Below the pieces are notes generated by a model. The model was given only the letters and a program-made list of their open reading frames with translations, did no database searches and was not told where the DNA came from. This document shows positions 3,782-31,132 of a DNA stretch of 64,000 bases, in pieces. Every line of letters starts with the position of its first letter. Positions within the stretch are counted from its first letter, which is position 1. A program made the position numbers and the translations under genes. The stretch spans positions 1 to 64,000 of the forward strand of contig NZ_MWQK01000005.1 of NCBI RefSeq assembly GCF_002210425.1. Reading direction: 5' to 3'. The DNA comes from Fibrobacter sp. UWB2 (GTDB lineage Bacteria; Fibrobacterota; Fibrobacteria; Fibrobacterales; Fibrobacteraceae).

Positions 3782-5050
3782 CTACTTAATTCTAATCAAC
3801 TGCACATCCTTAATCCAAATCGTTCTTTCGGCCTTGCCCAAATTCAAGTCCAGACGGGCGTTCGGGTCCGTTTTTTCTGGGGTAAATTCAATTTCAAACG
3901 ACTTCCCGGAAGTCGACACCTTGACGTGTTCCTGGAACCCATTGGTCTCATTGTTGTAAATGGAATTCGCAAGGCGTGCGGTCACCTCTCCATCGACATC
4001 GGACCAGATGGTGAATATAAATTTGTACGTAGCGCCAGCCACCAAAGGAATATTTTCGTGCAACAGCTGAACGCTATACGAAAAGTCACCACCTCTAGTC
4101 ACATGGACGCGCATCACATTCGAATTCTTTTCCTTAACGATGGACGTATCGGCAACCCCGTTGAACTGCCTATGGAAAATCCATTCATTGCCACCATCAC
4201 TAAAGTCGCCGTTAGAAATAAAGTTCTTATTCAGAGGTTCGACAATTTCTTCCCAGATATCATCTACAAAGCCGTCGTATTCGGCACCATCTGCACCCGT
4301 GTACTTGAAGCGCAGACACTGGAAACTCGGCAAGAACCGATCGTTCAGCGATTTCCAGAGATCCGCATTTTCAGTCTTGCTGAAGCGGATTACACCATCA
4401 TCGTTAACATGCGCCGTAGAAAAATCTACCCCGCCAACAAAACGGTGCACACGGAATTCTACAGACAAATTCACCGCAGAATCCTGAATTCCAATCTGAG
4501 AATGATTGTACATCAATTCAAACAGCTGGAAATTGTTCATCTCGTAGACAAACGGGATTTCCTTGCCATTTTGACGGATGCGTCCGTAAATCGAGTTAAC
4601 GCCCTCTTTTTTGCCAACTTCAAAACGGACACCGATTTCCTTGAGGAACCCGCCATTTTTCAAGTTGATATTGTAGAAGGCTTCCTTGACATAGGCGCCA
4701 TCCGTAAATGAAATGGGGAGCACTGCCGCCGGGTCATCCTCGTACGGCCAAATCTGCTGGCCATTCTTCACATCAACGGACACGCCCGTATAGAAGCTGC
4801 AATACGAACGAACCTCGGAGAGCGTGAGCTGGAACGTATCGATTACAACCTTTTCGTCTTCTGCAGCCACCTTCGAAAGCGCCACCGGCTTTGCATCCGA
4901 ATAGTCCACCGAGAACTCCGCCGTGAGTCCCAAGTTCTGCGCAATTTCCGGATTTCCAATTTCAATACCGGCCGTAGTGTCGGATTCAGAACATCCGGCA
5001 AACCACAATGCCACAAGCACGCAACCGATTATTGAACACAAAGAACGCAT
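3782..5050 (-). CDS. Lipoprotein with C-terminal carbohydrate-binding-like domain
   Basis: A 422-residue lipoprotein of unknown function. The second of two adjacent Met codons is preferred because GAGGAG lies about 4 nt upstream. The signal peptide ends in the lipobox FAGC (Cys20). Residues about 285-422 look like a galactose-binding-type jelly roll of the CBM4/9 kind: they start with an 'ISNGDFSDGGNEW' motif and contain SYSVQL and YKFIFTIWSDV. The middle part is unassigned. The start overlaps the stop of the upstream TIGR02147 gene (TGATG), so the two are translationally coupled. Binding to plant polysaccharide is inferred from fold resemblance only. Confidence 0.7.
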   Translation of the reverse strand: MRSLCSIIGCVLVALWFAGCSESDTTAGIEIGNPEIAQNLGLTAEFSVDYSDAKPVALSKVAAEDEKVVIDTFQLTLSEVRSYCSFYTGVSVDVKNGQQIWPYEDDPAAVLPISFTDGAYVKEAFYNINLKNGGFLKEIGVRFEVGKKEGVNSIYGRIRQNGKEIPFVYEMNNFQLFELMYNHSQIGIQDSAVNLSVEFRVHRFVGGVDFSTAHVNDDGVIRFSKTENADLWKSLNDRFLPSFQCLRFKYTGADGAEYDGFVDDIWEEIVEPLNKNFISNGDFSDGGNEWIFHRQFNGVADTSIVKEKNSNVMRVHVTRGGDFSYSVQLLHENIPLVAGATYKFIFTIWSDVDGEVTARLANSIYNNETNGFQEHVKVSTSGKSFEIEFTPEKTDPNARLDLNLGKAERTIWIKDVQLIRIK

Positions 5051-5895
5051 CATACTCCTCGGGTTAGAGGGTACAGCTGGATATTGATTTGCACAACATC
5101 CTCACCTTCCCCAGCCTTTGCTGAGAAATCTAGTAGTTCTTTGCGCATCAGTTGCAAATGTTTTTTCAAATTGGGGAAATCTTCGCGTTTTATGCTAAAC
5201 GTAAGGGCAGAAACGTCCCTTTGCGAGCCCGGAAGCGCCGAAAGCATGTCCGCCGAAAGCTTGAGCATCTGGAGATGGTACATCTTGACCATCAAATCCT
5301 GGACTTCGTCGTCCGTAGTAATCAGGGGGTCGCGCTGGCGATAACCATTGGCCGTCTTTACCAAAAGCCCAAGTTCCACGAGAAGCTTGAGCGATTCCGT
5401 CACCTGTGCAGGCGTAATGAGGCCACCGAGGCGCTTGGAAATCCAGTCGGGAATCGGGCGAAAATCCTTGAGCGCCACCATCTCGAGAATTGCGGAATGG
5501 TGCCATTCACGGAAAATGCGGAACTGCGCCTTTTCCATCTTGTGCAGTTTGGAGCGCGGGCTAGCCTTCAAAAGTTGGGCGTAGTAAACCTGCTTATCCG
5601 CATCCGTCTGAGCCTGGTTGAAGAAAACGAGACTTTCGAAATATGCGGCACGCTGGCCATCCAAGCCGAGGCCGTGGATGAGCTTTACCACCGTGTTCTT
5701 TGTAATGTTTCGCTTTCCGTCAATCGTGAGCTTGAGATGGGCATGACTCGAAAGCCCCGCCTTCTCCGCGAAGAAACGGAGGCTGAATGCCGGAACCGTC
5801 TTCTTCTTGTACTCATAGTAGTCCCGCAAATACACACGGTAGTTTGTGTACTGCAGAACATCAGGTTCAACTATGCGATTTTCTCCTGTTTCCAT
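5050..5895 (-). CDS. TIGR02147 family protein (Fibrobacter paralogous family)
   Basis: This 281-residue cytoplasmic protein matches in pattern the TIGR02147 family, which is strongly expanded in Fibrobacter. It has an N-terminal helix-turn-helix-like stretch (about 15-75: YTNYRVYLRDYYEYKK, FSLRFFAEKAGLSSHAHLK). A central winged-helix-like part (about 120-185) follows, and the C-terminus resembles DUF4423. A role as transcriptional regulator is plausible but unproven. It is immediately followed by, and overlaps, a lipoprotein gene, an arrangement that suggests it controls or senses for that partner. The Shine-Dalgarno sequence is weak. Confidence 0.75.
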   Translation of the reverse strand: METGENRIVEPDVLQYTNYRVYLRDYYEYKKKTVPAFSLRFFAEKAGLSSHAHLKLTIDGKRNITKNTVVKLIHGLGLDGQRAAYFESLVFFNQAQTDADKQVYYAQLLKASPRSKLHKMEKAQFRIFREWHHSAILEMVALKDFRPIPDWISKRLGGLITPAQVTESLKLLVELGLLVKTANGYRQRDPLITTDDEVQDLMVKMYHLQMLKLSADMLSALPGSQRDVSALTFSIKREDFPNLKKHLQLMRKELLDFSAKAGEGEDVVQINIQLYPLTRGV

Positions 5896-21967: not shown

Positions 21968-22060
21968 ACAACATTTGCAACGCTTCTTTTACTCTAAAAA
22001 TCACATCCATAGTCTTACAATTAAAATATTTGTATATTGCGTTCAAATTAAGGAGGCAAT

Positions 22061-25000
22061 ATGCACTTTTCGCGATTTACGTTCCGAAAGGCATTTTTAT
22101 CATCGTGTTTGGTTTTGCCATTATATCTAATGGCCTGTGGTGACGATAGCAGCAGTAACGCAGAGGAACCTTCAATCGAAGACGGGGAAGAAGACAACCT
22201 CGGTGGTGATGAATTCAGAGACACCACCATTACAGGCACCAATTACAATTCCAAGACGGGTTCCGCAAGCATTATCAAAAGCGAAATTCTCGACGCAAAA
22301 AGCGGCAACTCCTACAAGACCATCCAATTCGGGCCTTACACATGGATGGCCGAAAACGCAAATTACAAGGTTTCAAAAAGCTCCTGTTACGACGGGGATT
22401 ACGAAAACTGCGAATCCAATGGTCGTCTGTACCAGAGCATGAATGCCGACCAGGCATGTCCTAGCGGGTTCAAGATTCCGTCCGAAGCCGATTACGAATA
22501 CATGCTCAAATTCGCTAAAAGCGTCACCGACCCGGCCTTCGGTTTCAACCCGCAAATGTCCGGTTCCTGCGAAACCGTCAACGGGGAGCTACAATGCAAG
22601 GGCCAAGGCAAAGAATCCTACCTCATGACATCCGATTTCGATGTCTTTAAGGTGACCTCCAAAGGCAAGGCGTATTTTGAAGAAGCCAATTTCAGCGCCT
22701 ATTACGCCGTGCGTTGCATGAAGATGTCGCACTTTGTCGAAACGGAAAGCCAACTCCCCACTTGCGATTCTTCTACATACAAATACCTCGATGATTTCTT
22801 TGTCGCAAGCAAGGGCAAAAACTACTACTGCAACAAAAAGAAATGGGTCAAGGACGACGAAAACTCCTGCCTTTCTTCTGAGCGCGGCGAAAAGCATTAC
22901 TACAAGGACACGTTGTTCATTTGCAAAAACAACACTTGGGAATACGCGACCATGAATGACGTCGACGCAAGCTGCACCAAGAAAAATCAGTGGGAAGTAC
23001 AAAAGCTGAACGGACAAAGTTACATTTGCGATGATTCCACCTGGCGCATGCCCACGAACATCGAATCCTCCATCGGCCTCTGCAATAACGACAGTTTAAA
23101 GAAAATGGCCGTATTCGAAAACAAGAAGGAATCCATCGACTACATCTGCGATTCTATCGGCTGGCGTAAGGCTGTACTCACAGACTCCATCGGCAAATGC
23201 ACCCAAAAGAGGCAATGGGAACAAGAAACAAACTACGGCAAGGACTACGTGTGCGACGATACCACCTGGCGTGAACCCACCAAGCTTGAAATGGCTATCG
23301 GCATTTGCTCTCCAGACAGTTTAAAGAAACAAGCAACTTTTAAGGATGAAAAAGACACCATAGATTACGCCTGCGACTCCACTGGCTGGCGCAAAGCCGA
23401 AATCTGGGACAAGTACGGAGCATGCGACAAGAGCAAATATTACAAGATTTACAAACTCGGAAAAGATTCCTACACCTGCCGCAAAAACAACAAATGGGAA
23501 CAACTTTCAAGCGTCGAAGACAGCCTCGGTTTTTGCACTCCAGATATGAAAGGCAAACTGGACACGATTGGAACAAGTTCATATTACTACTGCGATGATT
23601 CTGGTTGGCGTCAAGCCGTTGCCGACGATTACCTTGGCATATGCGATTCCACGTTCAAGTACAAAATGAAGTATCTGTGGGGCGACGATTACGGTTGCAA
23701 GGACGGTCCTAATTGGGAATACCTCGAATACCCCGAAAGCGACCTTGGCTATTGCGTTCCCGAATTTAAAGGCGTAGTCAAAATTGACCGATACGCGACA
23801 AGCTACATTTGCGATACCAAGTGGCGCACTGCAACAAAGGCAGAAGCCCTTGGCACATGCTCGGACGAAAACGAAGGCAAAAAGAGCTTTTTCAAAGAAA
23901 ACAAGAAAATGATCGATTATGTCTGTGCATTCGGCTCTTGGAGAGAAGAAACAAGACAAGACGACTCCCTTGGCGTTTGTACAACATCAAAATTGAAGAA
24001 AATCGGTAAAGTTGGCTCCACGGAATACATTTGTACAAGCGAAGGATGGGTTGTTCCAACTCTTATTGCGATCCACGATTCATGTACCGCAGATCGTGAA
24101 AATGAACTCGTACAGTTCCAGAACAAAACCTACGTATGTAGAAACAATCGTTGGACGGGAATTACAGGCATCGAGTCCATTAACGGCTTATGCACCACCG
24201 AACGCGAGAACGAACTTGTAAAGTATCAAGACAATACCTACGTATGCAAAAGCAAACGTTGGACTGAAGTTACGGGAGTCGAGTCCATAAGCGGCATATG
24301 CACCGCAGATCGCGAAAATGAACCCACAAAGTACCAAGAAGCCATCTACGTCTGTCGCAACAAAAAATGGCAACAAGCCACAGGCCTTGAGGCTGAAGAC
24401 GGAATATGCACCACCCAAAGAGAAGACGAAGTTGTCGTTTATTCCACAAAGGGAGACATATATCAATGCAAATCCCAAAAGTGGACATCAGTCTCGGCAG
24501 CAAGCGTTTTTGGCAGCTGCACTGAAACAAACAAGGGAGCAACCAAGACTCTTGACGGAGTCGATTTCTTCTGCTCTCAAAATAAGACATGGAAAGTTGC
24601 TACAGATCTTTATGAGCAATTCGGAGAATGTTCCTGCGACATCCGCGGGAAAGTCATTACATTCAAAGAAAAAAAATACGGGTGTATCGGAACTGCCAAT
24701 TGCAAAAATCCAACCTGGGTTGAATACACCCCGATAATTGAAGCCTTAGGATTATGCGACAACTATAACTCAAAATTGCAATGGAATGAATACAACGGAA
24801 AGGACTATACCTGCAAAAACAACAAATGGGAAGAAGTGTCGACCACATGGGAAGCATACGGTTCTTGCAACAAAAACGATTCCTTGAAATACGGTATTTT
24901 AGTCGGGTATAAAGGACAACATTACTATTGTGAAAAAGATTTAGACGACAAGGACTACCTTCCTGGCTGGCACCCGCTTACCGCAATTGACTCCGTCAAT

Positions 25001-25828
25001 GGGGTTTGTACAAGGCATAATCAAGGAGATACCATAACTTACAATGGTAATCCATACTACTGCAAAACAAAAAAGGACTCATACGGCGAAGATCACTTAT
25101 ACGACTGGATCCCGGCACCAACACCCGACGTTTTCTTTGGTCGATGCGACATTGCCAAAGAAGGTCAAAAAGGAAAAATGAAAGGCAGGAACTACGTATG
25201 CTTTGATAACAAATGGGAAATAGATCCAGCCGATTATGGTTCCGTTACAGACGCAAGAGATGGCCGCCGATACAAGACCATCAAAATTGGCAAGCAGGAA
25301 TGGATTGCCGAAAACCTGCAATACAATGTGGAAGGTAGCTGGTGTGGCGGAAATCATGATGGATGTGCGACATACGGCCGTCTGTACAGCTGGGACATGG
25401 TCATTGGACAACCGAAGACCAAACAACCGACCTTGGCAAACATTGAAGATCCAGAATCGCTCCAAGGCATTTGCCCAAACGGTTGGAGAGTCCCCTCAAC
25501 TACAGACTGGGCAACACTTCTTCAAGAATGCAGTGCGTCCGAACTCCGCAAAAATCTTGCCGGACGCGATTCCATTCACACGGACGTCTGCGGTTTTTCA
25601 GCATTGGAAACAGGCTTTATAGACATCTTTTACAGAAATGGAATTGACTACACCGAAGAACTCACTATAAGAACCTATGCCGATGTCAACACGTTCTTCT
25701 GGAGTTCAGAACAAGTAAACGATACGTCCGCAACAAGATTGTCGTTTGAAAATATTCGCTATTCTATAAAAAACACGTCCCCAGAAAGTAAGATAAACGG
25801 TTACCCTCTCCGTTGCATCAAGAAGTAA
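22061..25828 (+). CDS. Giant FISUMP-domain lipoprotein with ~22 Cys/Trp repeats
   Basis: A 1255-residue lipoprotein (lipobox LMAC, Cys26), preceded by a strong AAGGAGG Shine-Dalgarno sequence. Two FISUMP domains frame it: an N-terminal one (about 75-230: TIQFGPYTWMAENANYK, GRLYQSM, CPSGFKIPSEADY) and a C-terminal one (about 1062-1255: TIKIGKQEWIAENLQY, GRLYSWD, CPNGWRVPSTTDW, GYPLRCIKK). Between them are about 22 units of 33-47 residues with the pattern C-x(n)-G-x(n)-Y-x-C-x(n)-W. Each unit's two Cys could form a disulfide, giving a long stalk. The function is unknown; surface adhesion is an inference. It has its own terminator. Confidence 0.88.
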   Translation: MHFSRFTFRKAFLSSCLVLPLYLMACGDDSSSNAEEPSIEDGEEDNLGGDEFRDTTITGTNYNSKTGSASIIKSEILDAKSGNSYKTIQFGPYTWMAENANYKVSKSSCYDGDYENCESNGRLYQSMNADQACPSGFKIPSEADYEYMLKFAKSVTDPAFGFNPQMSGSCETVNGELQCKGQGKESYLMTSDFDVFKVTSKGKAYFEEANFSAYYAVRCMKMSHFVETESQLPTCDSSTYKYLDDFFVASKGKNYYCNKKKWVKDDENSCLSSERGEKHYYKDTLFICKNNTWEYATMNDVDASCTKKNQWEVQKLNGQSYICDDSTWRMPTNIESSIGLCNNDSLKKMAVFENKKESIDYICDSIGWRKAVLTDSIGKCTQKRQWEQETNYGKDYVCDDTTWREPTKLEMAIGICSPDSLKKQATFKDEKDTIDYACDSTGWRKAEIWDKYGACDKSKYYKIYKLGKDSYTCRKNNKWEQLSSVEDSLGFCTPDMKGKLDTIGTSSYYYCDDSGWRQAVADDYLGICDSTFKYKMKYLWGDDYGCKDGPNWEYLEYPESDLGYCVPEFKGVVKIDRYATSYICDTKWRTATKAEALGTCSDENEGKKSFFKENKKMIDYVCAFGSWREETRQDDSLGVCTTSKLKKIGKVGSTEYICTSEGWVVPTLIAIHDSCTADRENELVQFQNKTYVCRNNRWTGITGIESINGLCTTERENELVKYQDNTYVCKSKRWTEVTGVESISGICTADRENEPTKYQEAIYVCRNKKWQQATGLEAEDGICTTQREDEVVVYSTKGDIYQCKSQKWTSVSAASVFGSCTETNKGATKTLDGVDFFCSQNKTWKVATDLYEQFGECSCDIRGKVITFKEKKYGCIGTANCKNPTWVEYTPIIEALGLCDNYNSKLQWNEYNGKDYTCKNNKWEEVSTTWEAYGSCNKNDSLKYGILVGYKGQHYYCEKDLDDKDYLPGWHPLTAIDSVNGVCTRHNQGDTITYNGNPYYCKTKKDSYGEDHLYDWIPAPTPDVFFGRCDIAKEGQKGKMKGRNYVCFDNKWEIDPADYGSVTDARDGRRYKTIKIGKQEWIAENLQYNVEGSWCGGNHDGCATYGRLYSWDMVIGQPKTKQPTLANIEDPESLQGICPNGWRVPSTTDWATLLQECSASELRKNLAGRDSIHTDVCGFSALETGFIDIFYRNGIDYTEELTIRTYADVNTFFWSSEQVNDTSATRLSFENIRYSIKNTSPESKINGYPLRCIKK

Positions 25829-25863
25829 CACACCAACCTTAACGGACGTTTCCTTTATACGAG

Positions 25864-25894
25864 AATGTCGCCCGCGGGCGGCATTTCTTCTTTT
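25864..25894 (+). terminator. Terminator after the FISUMP gene
   Basis: Stem AATGTCGCC/GGCGGCATT (25864-25872 and 25877-25885, one T-G pair) with loop CGCG, then TTCTTCTTTT. Confidence 0.85.
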
Positions 25895-28512: not shown

Positions 28513-31008
28513 TTACTGGAACTGAGCCGTGAAGGTAGCACCTTCCGTCGGTTCCACCAAGCGCGGGTTGTCAGCAACGCCATCGCTCCAGCCGGTAAAC
28601 GAAGCACCTGCACTCGGAACAGCCGTCAAGAGGATCGGGTTACCCACAAAGAACTTGCCCTTGTAAGACGTAGCACCACCCGGAAGAGCGGCACCTTCCA
28701 TAAGCACCGTACCACTGCCAGAAGCAGCAATCGTCACGGTAGCCGTACCGCTCAAGCCAAATTCTTCCTCGTATTCCTGAATAACCTTAGGATCACGCTT
28801 TTCGGCCCATTCCTTCATGCAAGAACCAGTCTTGTCAAATCCCTTATGGCAAGCGTTCTCATACCACTTTTCATTCTGCTTGAACTTGGCAAGGTCACGT
28901 TCCATTTCCTGAGCATCAATCTTAGACGTCATCGCATCGACAATCTTTTCAACATTCTTGCCGTTCGTATAGCTATTGAACATCACAGCAGAGCGGTTGA
29001 TGAACATACGCTTGAATTCCGGGTTCTTGATAAGCTGAATGTAGAGGTTAGCAAAGCAACCTTCTTCCTTGCACGGCTTATTTCCACCGCCCTTCTTGAT
29101 CCAGGAGAACATATTAGTTTCCTGTACAAATTCTTTATCGTTTACACCCCACATCCAGTCAAAACCGTGGTCAAGGTCATAAACCATGAACTTCCACGGG
29201 TGTTCCGGAGCCATCCAGGCGCGAACGTTGTTGTTCGGCCAGTCACCGTTGTGCATATAAATTTCAGCAGCCATGTAATCGGCAAGATTACCCACATCGA
29301 GCAAGAGCTTTGCCGAAGCGTAGTTCGCATTGTTTTCGCCAGAGAAATCGTTTGTAGCCACAAAGTGGAGCATGTTCATGTAGGCATCAGTCGTACCGTT
29401 GCTGGCTTCAACTTCCTGGCCCAAGTGCTTGATGAAGTTCACCGTATTCGCTTCGATCTTGTAGTTCGTTTCTACGTAATGCTTGTTGAAGCGTTCGCGC
29501 ATATCGTGAATGCCGTAGTATCTGCCATTGTAGAACACCACCACCTGGCGGCTTCTCTGGTAATCCACGCTCGTACCTTCAAGGAGGGCACCGCCCATAG
29601 CATCTTCGATGTAGTCGCTCACATAGCGGTTACCGTTGTTGCGGAGGTTGAAGGACTTGTACTTGTCATTCACGCCCTTGCGGGTTTCGAACAACGGATA
29701 GTTGATGCTACCGTCTTCATATTCTTCACGGAGGCGGATAGAGACAGACTTCTTGTCGTTCAAGCGGCTATAGCCACCCATGAGGGAGATACCCGCATCC
29801 TTTTCCCAAGTAGAGCCATCCTTCGTAGAAGAGCCATTTTCGAAGTATTCCACATGGATCGGATATTCCACATCGGCGTAGAGGCCGGCGCTGTCCTTGC
29901 AGTTCTTCGGAGCATTGCAGCTAGTCTTGATATAGTGTTCACGGAAGAAGCTGGAGTCCACGCTGATAGCGACAATCGGCATCTTCACCTGATCTTCATC
30001 AACAAAGAATGTACGGGTCGTCACCGTGTTCGAAATAGCGCCCTTCTTGAACGTTGCGCAACGGAAAGACACACTATGTTCAATGCGCTTCGGGGAGTTG
30101 AATTCCGGAGAGCTTTCGGTCGGCACAGAACCGTTGGTCGTGCAGCGGAGCGTGACACCTTCCGGGAGTGCAGGCGGATTCAAGGTAAACGGTTCGTTAT
30201 AGAAACCGGACTTAAGGCCGCTCATATCGGCAGCCGGGACAATTTCGTCATAAGCCTTAGATGTCGTATTCGGCTGTTCCGGAGTCGGCTTTTCAAAATA
30301 CTTCCAGTAACCGCCATCGACAATGCCCCAGCTGAGGCCACCCGTCAATTCCGGATAAGCGACCGAGTCACGGATTCCGTTGAACTTGTCGAGCAAGTAA
30401 AGCGTGCCGCCGTTTTTGTCAAGCTTCCAGTTCGTATGCGGGCGCGTATGGCGATCGCCGTTATCGGCAATAGCAACCGCAGAAATATTATTCTTGTCGC
30501 AGAAAACAACTCTAAAGGACTTTGCCTTGAGAATGTCGTGGCCAAACACCCACTTGCGCAAGTTCTTCAAATTTTCGACAAGCGTATAGCCCGCCAAATC
30601 TACATCCTGGTCGCTAGAGTTGTAGATTTCCACCCAGGACGGATCGTTGCCATTTTCGTCCAGGAAATCCAAGTTAAGCGGGGTAATTTCCGTTATACGC
30701 AATGCAGACTGACCCACCCAATGAACAGTGGTATCGGGCGGCAATTGAACCCAGGTCGTCTCCGCAATGGTATCGTTACTGCTAGTTACGATTTGGATGA
30801 TTTCCATACTTGAAGAGTACGGAACGCTGGTGCCAGCAGAAGAACCCGGAACAGAGGCACCACAATTATTAAGTGCAGTACAATCCGGAGAACTCGGCCC
30901 GCCGAACGAGCCATTTCCATTATCATCAGCACAGCCTACAACAAACGCTGTACCTAAAACCGTAGCCAGAGAAAGAATCTCTTTAATCCATTTTTTTGAG
31001 CGAATCAC
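28513..31008 (-). CDS. CotH-family lipoprotein with lamin-tail and InlB-like domains
   Basis: About 831 residues, exported lipoprotein (VVGC lipobox, Cys26) with a Ser-rich linker. Domains in order: a lamin-tail-like domain (about 95-220: ITEITPLNLDF, WVEIYNSS, VDLAGYTL), a chitobiase-C-like segment (TLRCTTNGSVPTESSPEF), and a CotH-type region (about 330-700) with YYGIHDMRERFNKHY and FMVYDLDHGFDWMWG. A C-terminal repeat of the divergent InlB B type (ILLTAVPSAGASFTGWSDG) follows. CotH of Bacillus is a protein kinase of the spore coat; the role here is unknown. The GTG at 31008 has AGGTGG 5 nt upstream and was taken as the start. Confidence 0.82.
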   Translation of the reverse strand: MIRSKKWIKEILSLATVLGTAFVVGCADDNGNGSFGGPSSPDCTALNNCGASVPGSSAGTSVPYSSSMEIIQIVTSSNDTIAETTWVQLPPDTTVHWVGQSALRITEITPLNLDFLDENGNDPSWVEIYNSSDQDVDLAGYTLVENLKNLRKWVFGHDILKAKSFRVVFCDKNNISAVAIADNGDRHTRPHTNWKLDKNGGTLYLLDKFNGIRDSVAYPELTGGLSWGIVDGGYWKYFEKPTPEQPNTTSKAYDEIVPAADMSGLKSGFYNEPFTLNPPALPEGVTLRCTTNGSVPTESSPEFNSPKRIEHSVSFRCATFKKGAISNTVTTRTFFVDEDQVKMPIVAISVDSSFFREHYIKTSCNAPKNCKDSAGLYADVEYPIHVEYFENGSSTKDGSTWEKDAGISLMGGYSRLNDKKSVSIRLREEYEDGSINYPLFETRKGVNDKYKSFNLRNNGNRYVSDYIEDAMGGALLEGTSVDYQRSRQVVVFYNGRYYGIHDMRERFNKHYVETNYKIEANTVNFIKHLGQEVEASNGTTDAYMNMLHFVATNDFSGENNANYASAKLLLDVGNLADYMAAEIYMHNGDWPNNNVRAWMAPEHPWKFMVYDLDHGFDWMWGVNDKEFVQETNMFSWIKKGGGNKPCKEEGCFANLYIQLIKNPEFKRMFINRSAVMFNSYTNGKNVEKIVDAMTSKIDAQEMERDLAKFKQNEKWYENACHKGFDKTGSCMKEWAEKRDPKVIQEYEEEFGLSGTATVTIAASGSGTVLMEGAALPGGATSYKGKFFVGNPILLTAVPSAGASFTGWSDGVADNPRLVEPTEGATFTAQFQ

Positions 31009-31132
31009 GGCGACCACCTAAAATAAAGAACACGTTTCCCAAGGTTTTTCCATGGGACACCTAAATAATCCATCCAACAACACTAAATTTAGTAGTTTTT
31101 TCAAAAAAATAACAGTAATATTCTCTTTACCC

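Follow-up and report, generated by a model that had tools for sequence, protein, structure and literature searches.

A genus-wide family of two-cysteine, one-tryptophan repeats between FISUMP domains in predicted lipoproteins of Fibrobacter

Choline-binding and CROP-type repeats of surface or secreted proteins form solenoids of about 20 residues and are not known to carry a Cys pair. The FISUMP domain of the Fibrobacteres has been regarded both as putatively cellulose-binding and as a cohesin analogue; all genomes of the group but one carry 17-119 copies, and neither cohesin nor dockerin has been reported from this group (PMC4704652). The cohesin analogy was proposed by Warnecke 2007, as cited in PMC4704652, and also appears in PMC3625147. 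FISUMP is further reported to resemble DUF1566, a lectin-type variable-protein domain of retroelement targets (PMC4159848). The domain is relevant to the means by which Fibrobacter, lacking cellulosomes, holds on to cellulose and breaks it down, and it belongs to a large paralogous family whose function has so far only been guessed to be that of an adhesion or cohesin-like module.

The window analyzed here is a 64,000-nucleotide stretch of DNA from Fibrobacter, a gut bacterium that degrades cellulose. It contains, in a single open frame, a gene for a CW-repeat FISUMP lipoprotein (CW protein) whose domains follow the order lipobox, acidic and Ser-rich linker, FISUMP, 22 repeat units, and second FISUMP (Table 1). 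The sequence L-M-A-C at residues 23-26 agrees with the lipobox pattern [LVI]-x-[AGS]-C, and the same lipobox type (..AC-G-[DGS]) was found in most of 66 complete arrays. The 1255-residue product is thus predicted to be a lipoprotein and a substrate of signal peptidase II. An earlier note on this DNA had described a Cys-rich repeat chain between two FISUMP domains. We confirmed this layout, to which a lipoprotein anchor typical for the array family can be added. A Pfam scan of the whole protein returned neither an enzyme nor a carbohydrate-binding module (CBM) family above threshold.

Table 1. Features of the CW-repeat FISUMP lipoprotein gene, in window coordinates
Feature	Position	Strand	Basis or remark
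Shine-Dalgarno AAGGAGG	22050..22056	+	read from sequence; 4 bases before ATG at 22061
CW-repeat FISUMP lipoprotein gene	22061..25828	+	1255 aa ORF
Signal peptide, lipobox LMAC, lipidated Cys26 (predicted)	22061..22138	+	sequence
Acidic/Ser-rich linker (GDDSSSNAEEPSIEDGEED...)	22139..22270	+	sequence
N-terminal FISUMP domain, divergent, aa ~75-219	22283..22717	+	two TIGR02145 stretches
22 tandem CW units u1-u22, aa 235-1060	22763..25240	+	sequence
u3-u4 / u5-u6 duplicated A/B pair, 225 nt each	22973..23422	+	aa and nt identity
u13-u15 close copies	24083..24406	+	aa and nt identity; modelled together with u16
u18, extra Cys pair C859 and C881	24629..24754	+	sequence, orthologue alignment
u21, unit closest to CBM5/12 (GDTITYNGNPYYC)	25007..25144	+	PF02839 E=0.0038, 17.6 bits, cut-off 26.2
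C-terminal FISUMP domain, aa 1062-1254	25244..25822	+	TIGR02145 and PF09603, nearly entire profile
Terminator-like hairpin with T tract	25863..25886	+	such sites in the region no commoner than in shuffles

The repeat unit is approximated by C-x(16-22)-[Y/F]-x-C-x(3-12)-W, usually with Gly-x before the opening Cys of the next unit, and the spacing Cys-x-Cys-Trp given in the title of the earlier note was wrong. Its count of about 22 tandem units was accurate, with exactly 22 found. The first Cys (C1), the second Cys (C2), and the Trp were invariant in 22/22 units, as the note had it, but the Tyr two residues ahead of C2 was only nearly so, being replaced by Phe in u2 and u17. A simple regular expression matched 21 times in the real region, passing over u18 with its two extra Cys; in 1000 shuffles it averaged 0.38 matches and never exceeded 3. 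Units were 32-47 residues long and differed as greatly in sequence as had been stated, the mean pairwise identity over all units being 25%.

Duplication within the array was apparent at two places. Units u13-u15 were close copies, with mutual identities of 53-61% in protein and 62-75% in DNA, and aligned orthologues have 3-4 units of this type. The earlier note had taken them as a sign of recent duplication; at these identities the copies are close, but the event was not a very recent one. A second duplication was two units long, u3 and u5 sharing 53% and u4 and u6 56% of their residues, with 61.8% nucleotide identity between the pairs. Most of the family's long arrays had units more similar to the next but one (i versus i+2) than to the adjacent one (i versus i+1), for example 53-54% versus 31-34% in two orthologous first genes, and order-shuffling gave p of about 0.02 or less for this excess in 9/10 arrays. 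This alternation suggests that the first half probably goes back to an ancestral A/B repeat some 72-75 residues long.

The fold of the unit was modelled with AlphaFold2 from 20 four-unit rows taken from the window protein and related loci. The four-unit model (u13-u16) reached pLDDT 92.7 and pTM 0.65. In the model each unit has a short helix at C1, a three-stranded antiparallel sheet, and a linker helix. The strands span about 4, 6, and 4 residues, the second containing C2 and the third the Trp; the helix-sheet pattern was already visible in a single-sequence model of u13-u19 (pLDDT 69). Each unit is therefore confidently predicted to be a mini-domain of a short helix and a three-stranded sheet. 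Folding of the repeat as a unit, on which the earlier note depended, agrees with this model, while independence of a single unit is a prediction.

The units had no family in Pfam, NCBIfam, or PDB sequences, and the best match was CBM5/12 (PF02839), which several units hit below the curated cut-off, u21 being the best in the window; PF02839 was absent from whole-protein scans. A Foldseek comparison with the PDB gave no match at E 0.001 or better. Its top matches were clostridial and pneumococcal beta-hairpin repeats and glucan-binding enzymes (E 0.018-0.03, probability <0.5, TM about 0.2). VIA returned five rows with a best Z of 2.8 and no superposition reaching Z 3. Among these rows, the sole one bearing on a CBM5/12 fold was 4nz1, a chain of a chitin de-N-acetylase (Z 2.0, with rmsd 4.4 across 57 residues), and 4tvc, a chain of a glucan-binding enzyme, superposed at Z 2.1 (rmsd 6.4 across 52 residues). 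The CW repeat is a distinct family described by none of the libraries searched.

These matches bear on whether the repeats themselves bind, that is, whether the units are small CBM5/12-like or choline/glucan-binding modules, the array a multivalent lectin, and the FISUMP domains its caps. Both the sub-threshold CBM5/12 matches and the sugar- or choline-binding nature of the top Foldseek repeats speak for such an arrangement, as does the conservation of Tyr and Trp in each unit. However, every CBM5/12 score fell under the cut-off, the structural matches stayed at the low significance given above, and the units diverge beyond their Cys, Tyr, Trp, and Gly so far that no common sugar site is evident; the invariant Trp may instead belong to the core. 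We regard binding by the repeats as rather unlikely, and favor the units as a spacer in an outer-membrane stalk that presents the FISUMP domains.

That stalk would be stapled by disulfides, and the pattern of Cys gain and loss points to pairing within the unit. In five paralogues (L056, L076, L078, L081, and L110) the array alternates between two-Cys units and units of the form YGW..G..GEVKKG....YYVYENGAW that miss both Cys. In the latter, Trp or Phe-Gly stands in place of C1 and mostly Tyr or Phe in place of C2; the neighboring units retain both Cys. Since C1 and C2 are missing jointly within one unit, intra-unit C1-C2 pairing is supported; only this clear alternating subfamily was counted as evidence, as co-loss scored by masked HMM was noisy from indels. 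The extra Cys of u18 behaved likewise, both being present in the second genes of L091 and L092 and in L096 and both missing in the second gene of L097, and gain or loss as a pair favors a disulfide within the unit. The unit Cys were conserved in aligned orthologous arrays, as the earlier note required. One internal C1-C2 disulfide per unit is thus probable. The window protein has 58 Cys beyond the lipidated one. Across the family the number of Cys after the lipid Cys was even in 49/66 arrays and odd in 17/66, counts that come from related sequences and are not independent. In one case, the first array gene of L094, a 15-residue deletion not shared by the array gene of L095 removes one C1 and makes the count odd; both a true change and an assembly error are possible. 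A DsbA homologue is encoded in the bacterium's own genome, in which Pfam models found neither DsbB nor VKOR. With possibly up to about 29 disulfides in one protein, one may ask by what route a strict anaerobe would form them.

The two terminal domains were identified by curated models. TIGR02145 (FISUMP) matched the CW protein in two stretches with 214.4 bits (cut-off 41.65), and PF09603 (Fib_succ_major) in two stretches with 79.2 bits (cut-off 33.9). The C-terminal domain spans TIGR02145 profile positions 2-175 of 176. For the divergent N-terminal domain, residues 59-172 matched other FISUMP loci in the same genome, which gave 45 protein matches, and the orthologue L096, which has no C-terminal FISUMP, matched TIGR02145 at its N terminus only (1e-23, profile 2-86 of 176). 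A FISUMP domain at each end had been called unusual, but by sequence signature both ends carry one in 29/47 complete arrays of at least 9 units, with an N-terminal domain only in 17/47. CW proteins also matched Lcl_C at E 0.0013-0.12. Diversification of FISUMP by a retroelement was considered and rejected, as the own genome has no PF00078 reverse transcriptase and the C-terminal 329 bases had no other DNA match.

The repeat family is spread through the genus. The repeat region was matched in 52/101 genomes searched, all of them Fibrobacter, and a unit profile had matches in 90/168 genomes of the phylum. Fibrobacter supplied most of these, and the majority of Fibrobacter genomes had a match; in the remaining genera of the family, and in a single genus from a different family of the order, matches were fewer and mostly weaker. 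The profile matched 0/296 sampled Bacteroidota genomes at E 1e-4, which, with no positive control there, is weak proof of absence. Named relatives were Fibrobacter succinogenes and further metagenome-assembled genomes of Fibrobacter, many of which came from ruminants. Arrays ranged from 4 to 24 tandem units, each about 36 residues long. A phage origin was dismissed, there being no match in phage records and no significant PHROG.

Gene number varied as well. The window CW gene sits between birA and a ubiA-like gene. In three other genomes this slot holds two tandem paralogues (24 and about 20 units), in two genomes the first paralogue type only, and in the window the second type only. From u7 onward the window protein was 55-95% identical to the second paralogue, whereas u1-u6 were about equally distant from both, u5 being nearer the first. 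This pattern would fit a lost first gene as well as a crossover close to u6/u7. Elsewhere in the genus, arrays were often adjacent same-strand pairs (14/20 regions fetched). The A/B two-unit super-repeat, the frequent tandem gene pairs, and the variable copy number at the birA-ubiA slot are new here.

The gene neighborhood was rejected as a functional clue because neighbors were housekeeping genes, as at the window locus, or differed between loci, and no polysaccharide-breakdown enzyme was seen adjoining arrays in the regions compared. A lipoprotein with CotH kinase, lamin-tail, and Fn3-associated domains is encoded near the CW gene (28513-31017, minus strand), and its gene is kept beside the CW gene in L092 and other syntenic loci. 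Large ORFs with Listeria-Bacteroides repeat and beta-helix repeat matches lie beside CW genes in L133 (11251-16971, 1907 aa) and L135 (15385-18999, cut by the edge) and are absent from the window. Farther away, at 3782-5053 on the minus strand, the window encodes a predicted lipoprotein (AGCSES) with a CBM4/9 carbohydrate-binding domain.

The CW protein could also be a structural or protective envelope lipoprotein free of any specific adhesive role: a disulfide-rich coat, brush, or matrix, or else a spacer in the periplasm. The numerous paralogues, the genes in tandem pairs, the housekeeping neighbors, and a protein with neither enzyme nor above-threshold CBM family would all suit this account, but it leaves two FISUMP domains without a clear role, and paralogues have been lost differently from genome to genome, which suggests a function that varies and faces outward; we consider this account improbable. 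A non-cellulosomal scaffold, in which the array docks enzymes or surface proteins by way of FISUMP rather than binding substrate, draws on the cohesin-analogue proposal and on the lack of reported cohesins and dockerins, but that idea stands as a proposal with no partner domain known and no polysaccharide-breakdown enzyme was seen next to arrays, which makes it very unlikely.

The reading that we prefer, at about even probability, is an outer-membrane, disulfide-stapled, bead-on-a-string stalk that presents FISUMP binding domains. Lipid-modified Cys26 would anchor the CW protein in the outer membrane, and the 22 mini-domains, each with its internal disulfide, would form a long, protease-resistant, possibly rod-like spacer. 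The FISUMP domains, which are kin to binding domains of the lectin fold, would bind a ligand, most likely a plant cell-wall polysaccharide or a partner surface protein. Adding or dropping entire units, and losing or recombining tandem paralogues, could alter reach and binding face. The common lipobox, the invariant Cys, Cys, and Trp, the confident fold, the Cys-pair evidence, the mostly even Cys counts, the DsbA homologue, the FISUMP literature, and the spread of the family across a cellulolytic genus favor this stalk. Against it are the lack of DsbB and VKOR by Pfam, the 17/66 odd Cys counts, the pTM of 0.65 for four units as regards a rod shape, and the housekeeping neighbors. The literature on FISUMP (PMC4704652) makes adhesion plausible, and a role in plant cell-wall adhesion is probable; biologically the CW protein is most likely a surface repeat adhesin. 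In strain S85, 40/49 quantified putative lipoproteins were lower on cellulose (PMC6851124), which argues against the idea that lipoproteins generally take part in adhesion to cellulose. More broadly, Fibrobacter arrays might be length-tunable surface scaffolds whose FISUMP domains recruit enzymes or grip the plant cell wall, with tandem paralogues and gain or loss of units and genes tuning reach and specificity between strains, an extension that we hold as quite doubtful.

A genus-wide repeat that links FISUMP domains supplies concrete constructs with which to probe what FISUMP does, and its likeness to known systems is partial in each case. With CBM5/12 the units share a similar Gly...Tyr.Gly..Tyr stretch, a small three-stranded sheet in their predicted fold, and sub-threshold matches, but they score below the cut-off and differ in two conserved Cys and 4-24 tandem copies. 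Like choline-binding, clostridial glucan, or CROP-type repeats, they are short, aromatic-rich beta repeats in long arrays, but a CW unit has two Cys and a predicted helix, and the Foldseek E-values were not significant. The lectin-fold Lcl_C/DUF1566 domains of the Legionella collagen-like adhesin and of diversity-generating retroelement targets are reported to be similar to FISUMP (PMC4159848), in line with the Lcl_C matches; unlike those targets, the CW gene lies in a genome with neither reverse transcriptase nor a second copy of the C-terminal DNA. With the other FISUMP (TIGR02145/PF09603) proteins of Fibrobacter the CW protein shares curated-model end domains, the lipoprotein type, and many paralogues per genome; it differs from them in that some 830 residues of repeat, for which Pfam and NCBIfam have no model, connect its two domains.
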